Origin: Inquilinus sp. KBS0705
GTDB lineage: Bacteria > Bacteroidota > Bacteroidia > Sphingobacteriales > Sphingobacteriaceae
Direction: 5' to 3'
Assembly (NCBI GenBank): GCA_005938025.2
Contig: VCCI02000002.1
Location: forward strand, 372,001-436,000
Length of the DNA: 64,000 nt
Positions within the stretch are counted from its first letter, which is position 1. Each line of letters starts with the position of its first letter. A program made the position numbers and the translations under genes. Of the stretch, positions 51,904 to 55,458 are shown in pieces. Under the pieces are notes generated by a model. It was not told where the DNA came from and made no database searches. It saw nothing but the letters and a program-made list of their open reading frames with translations.

Positions 51904-52350
51904 ATGAATTTATATAGCTTTTTTAAGTACTTCCACTCGGGTTTCCGTTATATAGTAGTGCTATTGGTAGTAATAGCTATTGTACGCGCCTTTGCCGACT
52001 GGGCAGGCAAAAAACCTTACACCGAGGGCAACCGCAAGCTTAACCTGTTTGCCATGATATCGGCACATACGCAGTTTTTGTTGGGCATTATCTTGTACTT
52101 TTTAAGCCCTTATGTACAGTTCAACAGCACAACCATGAAAAATTTTGACACCCGTTACTGGACGGTTGAACATATTACTATGATGCTGATCGCCATTGTT
52201 TTAATTACCATCGGGCATTCAAAATCAAAAAGAGCATTAACGCCCGTGGCAAAAAACAAGGCTATTGCTATTTTTTATACTATAGCATTTGTTATAGTAG
52301 TTATAGCTATAGTGGCCAGTAAAAGGCCCTTTTTGGGCATTACCCATTAA
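51904..52350 (+). CDS. Four-span membrane protein of unknown function
   Basis: A 148-residue integral membrane protein with four hydrophobic segments (about 13-33, 50-70, 90-110, 125-143). The first pair is joined by a basic loop (WAGKKPYTEGNRKLN), and histidines sit near membrane faces (KYFHSGFRY, SAHTQF, VEHITMM), reminiscent of small cytochrome-b-like proteins. I recognise it only as a conserved Bacteroidota hypothetical. It precedes the trp leader but has a separate promoter-sized gap, so co-transcription is unlikely. Confidence 0.75.
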   Translation: MNLYSFFKYFHSGFRYIVVLLVVIAIVRAFADWAGKKPYTEGNRKLNLFAMISAHTQFLLGIILYFLSPYVQFNSTTMKNFDTRYWTVEHITMMLIAIVLITIGHSKSKRALTPVAKNKAIAIFYTIAFVIVVIAIVASKRPFLGITH

Positions 52351-52368
52351 AATAATTGCACAAAAAAT

Positions 52369-52397
52369 TTGCAAATTCATTTTTCTTTATAAATTTG
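52369..52397 (+). promoter_or_regulatory. Promoter of the trpEGC attenuator transcript
   Basis: TTG at 52369-52371, an 18-nt spacer and TAAATTTG at 52390-52397 match both promoter halves exactly. The expected start (about 52403-52405) lies only 2-4 nt before the leader ATG. Confidence 0.75.
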
Positions 52398-52406
52398 TTC
52401 CGCACA

Positions 52407-52475
52407 ATGAAAAAAATCAACCATACAACAAATTGGTGGCACTCAAATAAATTTTGGCGGCCGGATAGTTTTTAA
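52407..52475 (+). CDS. trpL: Tryptophan-rich leader peptide of the trp attenuator
   Basis: A 22-codon ORF, ATG to TAA, with tandem Trp10-Trp11 and a third Trp17; it begins MKKINHTTNWW and ends RPDSF. Three Trp in 22 residues just after a consensus promoter and before an attenuator is the mark of a trp leader peptide. Ribosomes would stall at the Trp codons when charged Trp-tRNA is short. The predicted transcript start leaves almost no 5' leader, so translation may be leaderless or nearly so. It is too short for standard gene finding. Confidence 0.9.
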   Translation: MKKINHTTNWWHSNKFWRPDSF

Positions 52476-52543
52476 TGTGCATTACTAATCAAATGTAAAC
52501 CTAATTTGAAACCCGGCGAACGCTCAATTCGCCGGGTTTTTTT
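52460..52543 (+). terminator. trp attenuator: terminator with competing antiterminator
   Basis: Terminator: perfect 12-bp stem AAACCCGGCGAA/TTCGCCGGGTTT (52509-52520, 52528-52539), 7-nt loop, T-run 52537-52543. Antiterminator: GCCGG (52460-52464) pairs with CCGGC (52513-52517) and, past a 3-nt bulge, GTTT (52468-52471) with AAAC (52509-52512), which takes up the 5' half of the terminator. The first strand lies inside the leader ORF, just 3' of the Trp10-Trp11 codons. A ribosome stalled there frees it; a ribosome at the stop covers it. Confidence 0.88.
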
Positions 52544-52567
52544 GTTTAATGTCCTTTTGAGAATAAC

Positions 52568-53977
52568 ATGAAAAAATATAAAATTACTACAATCCAAAAG
52601 AAGCTGCTGGCCGATACTACAACGCCTGTAAGTATTTACCTGCGCCTTAGGGATGTTTTTCCAAACTCGTTACTACTGGAAAGTTCTGACTATCATAGCA
52701 GGGAAAACAGCCTTAGTTTTGTATGCTGTGCCCCTTTTAGCGGTTTGGTTTTAGACGAGGGTAAGCTAAAAAAGAAATTCCCGGATGGAGCAGAAGAGAT
52801 AATCGCACCGGGTACATTTGATATCACCGAAGAGATCAACAGCTTTTCGGCCAGGTTTGAGGTAGAAGCTAACACATCTAAAATATTATCAAACGGGTTG
52901 TTTGGTTATTTTACCCACGAGGCGGTTGAACATTTCGAAACCATCCGCTTAAAAGAAAGTACCGACACTACCCGTAAAATACCGGTAATGCAGTACCATA
53001 TTTACAGTTATATTATAGCTATAGACCACTTTAAAAACGAACTGTATATTTTCCATAACCATGTTGAGGGCCAAAAGGAAACAAATGGGCTGGAGAAAAT
53101 TGAAGACCTTATTAAAAATAAAAACTTCCCCGAGTATACCTTTAAAAGCGATGAAGCCGAACAATCAAACTTAACGAACGACGAGTTTATAGCGATAGTG
53201 GAGAAAATGAAGCAGCATATTTACCGCGGCGATGTTTTCCAGATAGTACCGTCAAGGGCATTTTCGCGTGGGTTTTTAGGTGATGAATTTAATGTGTACA
53301 GGGCGCTGCGCTCAATAAACCCATCGCCGTATTTGTTTTATTTTGATTATGGTGACTTCAGGATATTCGGTTCATCGCCCGAGGCGCAGATTACTATTAA
53401 AAACCGTGTAGCCAGCATTTTCCCTATTGCCGGCACGTTTAAGCGCAGCGGGGATGACGAAAAAGATGCAGAGATAGCCCGTAATTTAGAAAACGACCCA
53501 AAGGAATCTGCAGAGCATGTTATGCTGGTAGACCTTGCCCGTAACGATCTTAGCCGCCATTGCGAGCAGGTTAGTGTAAAAGCCTTTAAAGGGGTGCAAT
53601 ACTACTCGCACCTTATACATTTGGTATCGCATGTTAGTGGTAAAATAAAAGAGGGCACATCATCATTTAAAATTGTGGCCGATACTTTCCCGGCAGGCAC
53701 ATTAAGCGGGGCGCCAAAATACCGTGCTATGGAGATAATAGACGAAAACGAAAAAAGCAAACGTAGCTTTTATAGCGGCGCTATTGGCTTTTTTGGCTTT
53801 AACGGCGATTTTAACCACGCCATTATGATACGCTCGTTTTTAAGTAAGAACAATACTTTGCACTACCAGGCAGGGGCTGGTATTGTAGCCGGGTCGGTAG
53901 CCGAAAGTGAATTAAAAGAGGTTGACAATAAAATAGCCGCGCTGCGCAAAGCAATTGAGCTTGCAGAGGAATTATAG
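52568..53977 (+). CDS. trpE: Anthranilate synthase component I
   Basis: A 469-residue chorismate-using enzyme that makes anthranilate with ammonia from TrpG. N-terminal region with LLESSD (about 38-43), the feedback-inhibition signature; the catalytic domain has YRGDVFQIVPSRAFSR, INPSPYLFYFDYGDFRIFGSSPE, PIAGTFKRSGDDEKD, DLARNDLSRHC and FPAGTLSGAPKYRAMEIIDENE. The ATG is 24 nt after the attenuator T-run. Length matches other Bacteroidota TrpE. First gene of trpEGC. Confidence 0.96.
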   Translation: MKKYKITTIQKKLLADTTTPVSIYLRLRDVFPNSLLLESSDYHSRENSLSFVCCAPFSGLVLDEGKLKKKFPDGAEEIIAPGTFDITEEINSFSARFEVEANTSKILSNGLFGYFTHEAVEHFETIRLKESTDTTRKIPVMQYHIYSYIIAIDHFKNELYIFHNHVEGQKETNGLEKIEDLIKNKNFPEYTFKSDEAEQSNLTNDEFIAIVEKMKQHIYRGDVFQIVPSRAFSRGFLGDEFNVYRALRSINPSPYLFYFDYGDFRIFGSSPEAQITIKNRVASIFPIAGTFKRSGDDEKDAEIARNLENDPKESAEHVMLVDLARNDLSRHCEQVSVKAFKGVQYYSHLIHLVSHVSGKIKEGTSSFKIVADTFPAGTLSGAPKYRAMEIIDENEKSKRSFYSGAIGFFGFNGDFNHAIMIRSFLSKNNTLHYQAGAGIVAGSVAESELKEVDNKIAALRKAIELAEEL

Positions 53978-54061: not shown

Positions 54062-54631
54062 ATGAAAAACATATTAATAATTGATAATTACGATTCTTTC
54101 ACCTACAACCTGGTGCATTTGGTAAACGAGTTAGGTTTGCAATGTGATGTGTGGAGAAACGACCAGTTTGATATAAACGATGTTGATAAATACAGCCACA
54201 TTATCCTTTCGCCGGGGCCGGGCATTCCATCTGAGGCTGGTTTACTTTTACAAGTGATTGAGAAGTATGCCCCAACAAAAAGCATGTTTGGCGTATGTTT
54301 GGGGCAGCAGGCCATAGCCGAGGTGTTTGGCGGACAGTTATACAATCTGCCGCAGCCTATGCACGGTATTGCCACCCCCATAAAAGTAACTGATAGCAGC
54401 GAAAAACTTTTTGATGGGTTACCCGATACCATCAAGGTTGGCCGTTATCACTCGTGGGTGGTTGAAAAGGATCTGCCCGCAGTATTGGTAACCACTGCTA
54501 TAGATGAAGAAGACGGGTCGGTAATGGCCCTGCGACATAAAACATATAATGTGCGCGGCGTACAGTTCCATCCCGAATCGGTACTAACCGAGTATGGTAA
54601 AGAAATGATGCAGAACTGGTTAAATGCTTAA
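54062..54631 (+). CDS. trpG: Anthranilate synthase component II (glutamine amidotransferase)
   Basis: A 189-residue class I glutaminase that supplies ammonia to TrpE. Triad: Cys in FGVCLGQQAIAE (about 79), His-x-Glu in VQFHPESVLTE near 168-170. The ILSPGPGIPSEAG oxyanion loop is intact. It is a free-standing subunit, not fused to TrpE or TrpD. An 84-bp spacer with short repeats separates it from trpE. The same glutaminase could also serve p-aminobenzoate synthesis, as in some bacteria. Confidence 0.95.
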   Translation: MKNILIIDNYDSFTYNLVHLVNELGLQCDVWRNDQFDINDVDKYSHIILSPGPGIPSEAGLLLQVIEKYAPTKSMFGVCLGQQAIAEVFGGQLYNLPQPMHGIATPIKVTDSSEKLFDGLPDTIKVGRYHSWVVEKDLPAVLVTTAIDEEDGSVMALRHKTYNVRGVQFHPESVLTEYGKEMMQNWLNA

Positions 54632-54675: not shown

Positions 54676-55458
54676 ATGAATATTTTAGATAAAATAGTAG
54701 CTCATAAAAAAAAGGAAGTTGACCGGGATAAGCGAGAAACAACTTATACCGAGTTAGAGGAGTCGGAGTCTTTTCGCCGCGATACCTACTCGTTTAAAGA
54801 GTTTTTACTGGCACCTGAGCGTACCGGCATCATAGCCGAATTTAAACGGCAGTCGCCATCAAAAGGCATCATCAATAATGATGCGCTTGTAAAAGAAGTA
54901 ACTAAGCAATATGCGGATGCTGGTGCTTCAGCGCTGTCGGTTTTAACCGATAAGCAGTTTTTTGGTGGCCGCAAGCTTGATCTGGTAAGGGCTCGCAGGG
55001 CCAATACCGTCCCCGTACTGCGTAAAGACTTTATGATAGATGAGTACCAGATAGTAGAGGCAAAATCATTAGGTGCCGATATTATTTTACTGATAGCCGC
55101 TATACTTACCCCGGCAGAGATAAAGAGTTTTGCTGCTCTTGCCAAAAGCCTGGAGCTAAATGTTTTGCTCGAGGTGCATAACCTGGAAGAACTGGAGCGC
55201 AGCATAGATTCCAACTTAGATGCCATTGGCGTAAACAACCGTAACCTGGCCGATTTTACAGTATCGGTAGAAAACTCTTATCAACTGGTTGATAAAATAC
55301 CCGCGGAGTTTTTAAAGATATCTGAAAGTGCCATTAGCGATACTGAAACCATTAAGCAGTTGAAAAAGGTTGGCTTTAACGGCTTTTTAATTGGCGAAAA
55401 CTTTATGAAACAACAAGACCCAGGCGCTGCCATGCGGGAGTTTGTAAAAGGCCTATAG
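54676..55458 (+). CDS. trpC: Indole-3-glycerol-phosphate synthase
   Basis: A 260-residue TIM-barrel enzyme that closes CdRP to indole-3-glycerol phosphate. Motifs: GIIAEFKRQSPSKGII (catalytic Lys), YADAGASALSVLTDKQFFGG, VLRKDFMIDEYQIVEAKSLGADIILLIAAIL, LLEVHNLEELE, IGVNNRNL and FLIGENFM. Single-domain, without the TrpF fusion of enterobacteria. It follows trpG by 44 bp. trpD, which acts between TrpE-TrpG and TrpC, is absent from this locus, as are trpF, trpB and trpA. Confidence 0.96.
   Translation: MNILDKIVAHKKKEVDRDKRETTYTELEESESFRRDTYSFKEFLLAPERTGIIAEFKRQSPSKGIINNDALVKEVTKQYADAGASALSVLTDKQFFGGRKLDLVRARRANTVPVLRKDFMIDEYQIVEAKSLGADIILLIAAILTPAEIKSFAALAKSLELNVLLEVHNLEELERSIDSNLDAIGVNNRNLADFTVSVENSYQLVDKIPAEFLKISESAISDTETIKQLKKVGFNGFLIGENFMKQQDPGAAMREFVKGL

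Follow-up and report, generated by a model that had tools for sequence, protein, structure and literature searches.

A Trp-rich leader precedes trpE-trpG-trpC

The window, that is, the whole 64,000-nucleotide stretch of DNA that was analysed, carries the genes trpE, trpG and trpC on its forward strand, directly downstream of a compact leader region. The trpE gene of this genome is 93% identical to that of named Mucilaginibacter species. The features of the locus are as follows.

52368..52371, + strand: -33 promoter element TTTG, read in the sequence, with a similar element in 83 of 95 relatives
52390..52397, + strand: -7 promoter element TAAATTTG, of the Bacteroidota type TAnnTTTG, read in the sequence, with the strict consensus in 92 of 95 relatives
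52402..52403, + strand: predicted transcription start, from the Flavobacterium johnsoniae spacing rule (PMC6847099) applied to the window
52407..52475, + strand: leader peptide ORF MKKINHTTNWWHSNKFWRPDSF and its stop, 22 codons, read in the sequence, with a Trp-rich leader in all 95 relatives
52434..52439, + strand: control codons Trp10-Trp11, which double as strand 1 of hairpin 1:2; no variation of TGGTGG among 56 aligned leaders
52443..52457, + strand: inner portion of the 1:2 hairpin, a short stem-loop just 3' of the Trp codons with arms 52443-52447 and 52453-52457, from covariation and the window RNA fold
52460..52471, + strand: strand 2, antiterminator 5' arm, GCCGG (52460-52464) and GUUU (52468-52471), from sequence, fold and relatives
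52509..52520, + strand: strand 3, the arm common to both structures, being the 3' arm of the antiterminator (52509-52517) and the 5' arm of the terminator, from sequence, fold and relatives
52528..52543, + strand: strand 4, the 3' arm of the terminator (52528-52539) and the T-run (52537-52543), from sequence and fold
52568..53977, + strand: trpE, anthranilate synthase component I (Pfam PF04715, PF00425)
54062..54631, + strand: trpG, glutamine amidotransferase subunit (Pfam PF00117)
54676..55458, + strand: trpC, indole-3-glycerol phosphate synthase (Pfam PF00218)

The promoter halves, the ORF with Trp10-Trp11, the antiterminator and the 12-bp terminator described in an initial annotation were all found again on re-reading the sequence. 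The two promoter elements are separated by 18 nt, and the leader ORF extends from the ATG at 52407-52409 to a TAA stop at 52473-52475. In the antiterminator, whose arms were also re-read, GCCGG and GUUU of strand 2 are matched by CCGGC (52513-52517) and AAAC (52509-52512), respectively, and the perfect 12-bp terminator is made of AAACCCGGCGAA (52509-52520) and UUCGCCGGGUUU (52528-52539), with seven T and 24 nt between the end of the T-run and the trpE ATG (52568). Antiterminator and terminator share one arm and are mutually exclusive, an arrangement that is backed by covariation. In the window and in its relatives, the intrinsic terminator sits between the leader ORF and the first structural gene. 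The folding z score of the leader RNA, -2.1, is modest on its own.

Conservation of the Trp codons and covariation of the RNA arms

The alignment with Mucilaginibacter and Pedobacter trpE leaders that had been suggested as a check of the initial annotation bears it out. Our comparison set comprised 110 trpE loci from these two genera and their kin, with 95 distinct upstream stretches, and all 95 contain, at the same place, a short ORF with at least two Trp codons; a plain WW rule detects 91 of them and the remainder carry W-x-W. The TGGTGG codons show no variation when 56 diverse leaders are aligned, and a Trp leader also precedes trpE in about 30 loci from other genera and families. In four loci (L054, L060, L102 and L110), leader and terminator lie approximately 80 to 110 nt farther from trpE, as if by an insertion 3' of the terminator. 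In L237 and L239, no Trp leader was found just 5' of trpE; the gene adjoins the end of a trpB-like ORF there, and an attenuator, if any, would precede trpB. The leader-like ORFs (MKLWQ...) before trpE in L121 and L222 contain just one Trp codon, and their spacing is near-leaderless.

Trp17, which the initial annotation also listed, is not upheld as a control codon by the comparison. Relative to the leader ORF, strand 2 occurs in each of the three frames (61, 23 and 11 sequences), and the same RNA stretch yields peptide tails of the LAAG, WQPD or GSR type, so that the region is conserved as RNA and not as peptide. The Trp17 codon of the window, which stems from the UUGG arm of a hairpin, is not conserved and is not regulatory, since a ribosome stalled on it would bury strand 2.

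The initial annotation had named the parts of the attenuator correctly and had overlooked one, a short hairpin just past the Trp codons, which covaries strongly. This inner hairpin fills the space between the last Trp codon and strand 2, leaving about 2 nt free on each side, and its arms appear as CCAA/UUGG, CCUG/CAGG, CCUUA/UAAGG, CUUAC/GUAAG, CCGUU/AACGG or CUAU/AUAG. The arms of strands 2 and 3 differ in a compensatory manner: most Mucilaginibacter have GCCGG/CCGGC, and nine Pedobacter-like loci have UCGG/CCGA. The sequences being related and not independent, shuffle figures are not to be taken as probabilities, and on this footing 438 of 475 strand 2:3 cells are paired, more than in any of 2000 shuffles (429 on average, at most 434), and the inner hairpin is 85% paired, with 33 double-changed cells against 12.6 in shuffled data, a number reached in 0 of 500 shuffles. 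The contrast for 2:3 is modest because most leaders share the GCCGG/CCGGC arms; covariation of the inner hairpin is much stronger, and its signal is lost when the partner arm is slid.

The distance from the second Trp codon to the start of strand 2 is 19 to 24 nt in 91 of 95 sequences, a spacing that fits a ribosome footprint; a clear strand 2 match was not found in a few relatives (L104, L105, L106, L108 and L110). In many relatives, the inner hairpin is extended by an outer stem between the Trp codons and strand 2 (CUGGU/GCCGG), and since the one runs into the other, the two together equal the classic 1:2 hairpin. The window's own fold contains the inner hairpin, and its outer 1:2 pairs have a low probability (0.01). 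RNAalifold run on the 95-sequence alignment returned mostly the terminator, since the competing helices cannot form together. A pairing of GCACA at the 5' end of the window's leader with UGUGC past the stop was set aside, being absent from the relatives looked at.

Ribosome position selects between the alternative helices

We folded the window RNA with the ribosome footprint blocked, the footprint sizes being assumed. When the A site holds Trp10 or Trp11 and transcription has not yet reached strand 4, the 2:3 pairing probability is 0.96 to 1.0; with the ribosome at the stop, 2:3 pairing is 0 and the terminator reaches 1.0 once strand 4 is present. Masked folding supports the proposal that a stall at Trp10/11 frees the antiterminator and that a ribosome at the stop blocks it. 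In the full-length fold, the terminator is always preferred, so that antitermination must be kinetic; by analogy with E. coli, we envisage a step that would be governed by timing. In the geometry of the window, a stall at the Trp codons leaves strand 2 free and a ribosome at the stop covers it; in some relatives the stop lies 24 to 28 nt past strand 2, and these may need the 1:2 hairpin.

The predominance of the terminator in the full-length fold is also what would be expected of a plain intrinsic terminator next to a chance Trp-rich ORF, without translation-coupled control. This explanation is very hard to credit, given that the Trp codons are invariant, that the spacing of strand 2 is fixed and that the alternative pairings covary. 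Conservation, covariation and masked folding together lend strong support to the attenuator and the geometry first proposed for it, and trpE-trpG-trpC is very probably governed by a ribosome-mediated (Yanofsky-type) transcription attenuator.

In the sequence of events that we propose, RNA polymerase would start 4 to 5 nt 5' of the leader ATG and a ribosome would load, with no Shine-Dalgarno sequence to guide it, at the 5' end or close to it. When Trp-tRNA is scarce, this ribosome would stall on Trp10-Trp11 and cover strand 1 and the inner hairpin, leaving strand 2 (GCCGG) free to capture the emerging strand 3 (CCGGC); the 3:4 terminator would then fail to form and trpE would be transcribed. 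When Trp-tRNA is ample, the ribosome would proceed as far as the stop (52473), which lies 13 nt beyond the point where strand 2 begins, and so cover strand 2; strand 3 would pair with strand 4, and transcription would end. Once the ribosome has been released, or if the leader is not translated, strand 2 could be sequestered in the 1:2 hairpin, which would also favour termination.

The leader start codon lies close to the promoter

The leader ATG of the window stands 9 nt past the G of the -7 box. Since the distance from the -7 box to the transcription start is 4 to 5 nt in F. johnsoniae (PMC6847099), the start is predicted at 52402-52403 and the 5'UTR would be 4 to 5 nt long, which revises the 2 to 4 nt given initially. 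In all but three of the 95 relatives (92), a strict TAnnTTTG box is located 3 to 13 nt 5' of the leader start codon, with a mode of 8 nt and variable bases in between, and a -33-like element is found 17 to 18 nt 5' of the -7 box in 83 of 95. Outside this group, where the loci were read by eye, a leader could be recognised in 31 loci of other genera or families, and approximately 23 of these have a -7-like box at most 13 nt from the start codon, several of these boxes with one deviating base; in others the box is at 15 to 33 nt, and L118, from another family, has a Trp leader and no visible -7 box.

Such distant or missing boxes would suit the view that the same attenuator acts on leadered transcripts, produced by read-through from the upstream gene (51904-52350) or from a farther promoter, the leader being translated as an ordinary ORF without a Shine-Dalgarno sequence. 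The upstream gene is codirectional (+ strand) and ends 57 nt before the leader ATG, and several relatives likewise have a gene end upstream. We nevertheless consider leadered transcripts rather unlikely, as the -33/-7 promoter directly 5' of the leader ORF is kept across the genus, even where the surroundings differ.

Initiation close to the 5' end, as the initial annotation proposed, agrees with the conserved short spacing from box to ATG, a computational observation; a 5'UTR of 4 to 5 nt would make the transcript near-leaderless and not leaderless. In published maps of other Bacteroidota, 3.7% of 5'UTRs are shorter than 10 nt in Bacteroides thetaiotaomicron (PMC7366714), 87% of leaders exceed 10 nt in F. 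johnsoniae (PMC6847099), and 5.5% of mRNAs are leaderless in F. psychrophilum (PMC9723704). In 400 kb of the window's own genome (contig C1, 1-400000), a TAHHTTTG box is no more than 13 nt away from the first ATG in 15 of 42 genes, an upper estimate, since the 42 are the genes with TAHHTTTG in the 150 nt upstream and their starts are the most upstream ones, uncurated. Judged by their N-termini, these short-spaced ordinary genes include guaA, pyrD, pheT and tgt. The idea that short spacing is exotic in this genome was rejected on this count. With many ordinary genes of this 400 kb (L200-L219) having a TAnnTTTG box 3 to 13 nt 5' of their first, uncurated ATG, short 5'UTRs may be common in the genus.

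The pattern TATAAATTTG-N(4-12)-ATG was counted 8 times, against 10 in a reversed control; as the count equals that of the control, a single match carries no weight and only conservation counts. The conserved short spacing is a real trait of the trp leaders and is not foreign to the genome. A broader reading, possible but somewhat doubtful, is that across much of the phylum trp leader transcripts have a 5'UTR of 0 to 9 nt, whose short length would be selected and would act as a built-in timing element where translation does not rely on Shine-Dalgarno sequences, the his leaders of the genus having longer 5'UTRs.

Relation to known trp leaders

The trp leader of E. coli (RF00513) consists of a Trp-rich leader peptide, strands 1 to 4 and a terminator before trpE. 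The window has the same order of parts and, as we infer, the same logic; it differs by the absence of a Shine-Dalgarno leader and by its promoter type, and it scores 17.3 bits with the Trp_leader model RF00513 against a cut-off of 41. Closer in phylogeny, the Bacteroidete tryptophan peptide leader RNA (Bacteroid-trp, RF01692) was described by Weinberg in 2010 (PMC2864571). It is likewise a Trp leader before Bacteroidota trp genes, and its model matches the other-family loci L226 and L227, which have the same anatomy. With this covariance model (at least 49 bits), no match was obtained in the window or its own genome, and the Sphingobacteriaceae leaders tested fall below the gathering score; the -7 box is 18 nt from the ATG in RF01692 members and 9 nt in the window. 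Rfam searches at the gathering score and at relaxed E-values gave no credible family for the window, the weak matches to RsaOG, Aar and the like at relaxed E-values being far below the cut-offs and reflecting the terminator.

The trp leader transcript of the alphaproteobacterium Sinorhizobium meliloti begins at the leader ATG, as mapped experimentally (PMC7298713), and that of the window would begin almost at the ATG. In S. meliloti, roles in trans have been shown for the RNA (rnTrpL) and for peTrpL, a peptide of 14 residues. The window shares the layout of a short transcript from near the leader ATG to the terminator (PMC7298713), and its terminated leader RNA or peptide might also act in trans. 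We regard this as improbable, for the C-terminus is variable and the reading frame of the region past the Trp codons differs among relatives, which argues against a conserved peptide function.

The window element belongs to a known type, Bacteroidota trp leaders being already curated and the ATG start being established in S. meliloti; in addition, a flavobacterial transcriptome gave strong clues for leader-peptide attenuation before amino-acid operons (PMC9723704). To call it a notable form of the classic mechanism was therefore an overstatement, as ordinary genes share the spacing, S. meliloti trpL is a precedent and RF01692 exists. The understanding of attenuation itself is unchanged. What our results add is a large and well-supported collection of trp attenuators for comparison, beyond the reach of the present Rfam model and backed by covariation of the competing helices, and a simple setting for testing Shine-Dalgarno-independent, near-5'-end initiation against the pace of RNA polymerase in Bacteroidota.

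Other leaders in the genome and the genus

The trp genes of this genome are split, with trpEGC in the window, trpDFB apart and trpA at another place. A second, independent trp attenuator, which counts in favour of the one before trpE and has its own leader and terminator, lies directly before trpD-trpF-trpB:

L246 1162-1285 (G000, contig C1, near 1290524), minus strand of L246: trpD attenuator with leader MKTINNNWWWLNEIS

Its strand 2 reads GGCAGCC and its strand 3 GGUUGCC, followed by GGCAGCC and a T-run. A WW(W) leader precedes trpD in 21 of 25 genomes of the genus, mostly with a -7-like box 7 to 16 nt from the ATG. Simple residue-rule searches for Thr and Ilv leaders returned nothing convincing.

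Upstream of pheA, a Phe/Tyr-rich leader (MNNSRAYFYGFYFYFTSKSRD and kin) is followed by a CCCGGC..GCCGGG terminator that immediately precedes the gene (L194 1340-1405 in G000; L183-L198), and both are kept across the genus. His-rich leaders (MGQFKLHHLHLHHHPVMNR and kin) lie upstream of hisG in the genus (L141, minus strand, 1222; L128-L140), with no obvious intrinsic terminator before hisG in these loci. Near-leaderlessness as a general rule for the attenuators of the genus was rejected, the box being at 28 to 59 nt in the his leaders and at about 16 nt, with a deviating box, before pheA. Past the leader, the hisG loci have a conserved TGTTTCTACGCGAAAT-like stretch.
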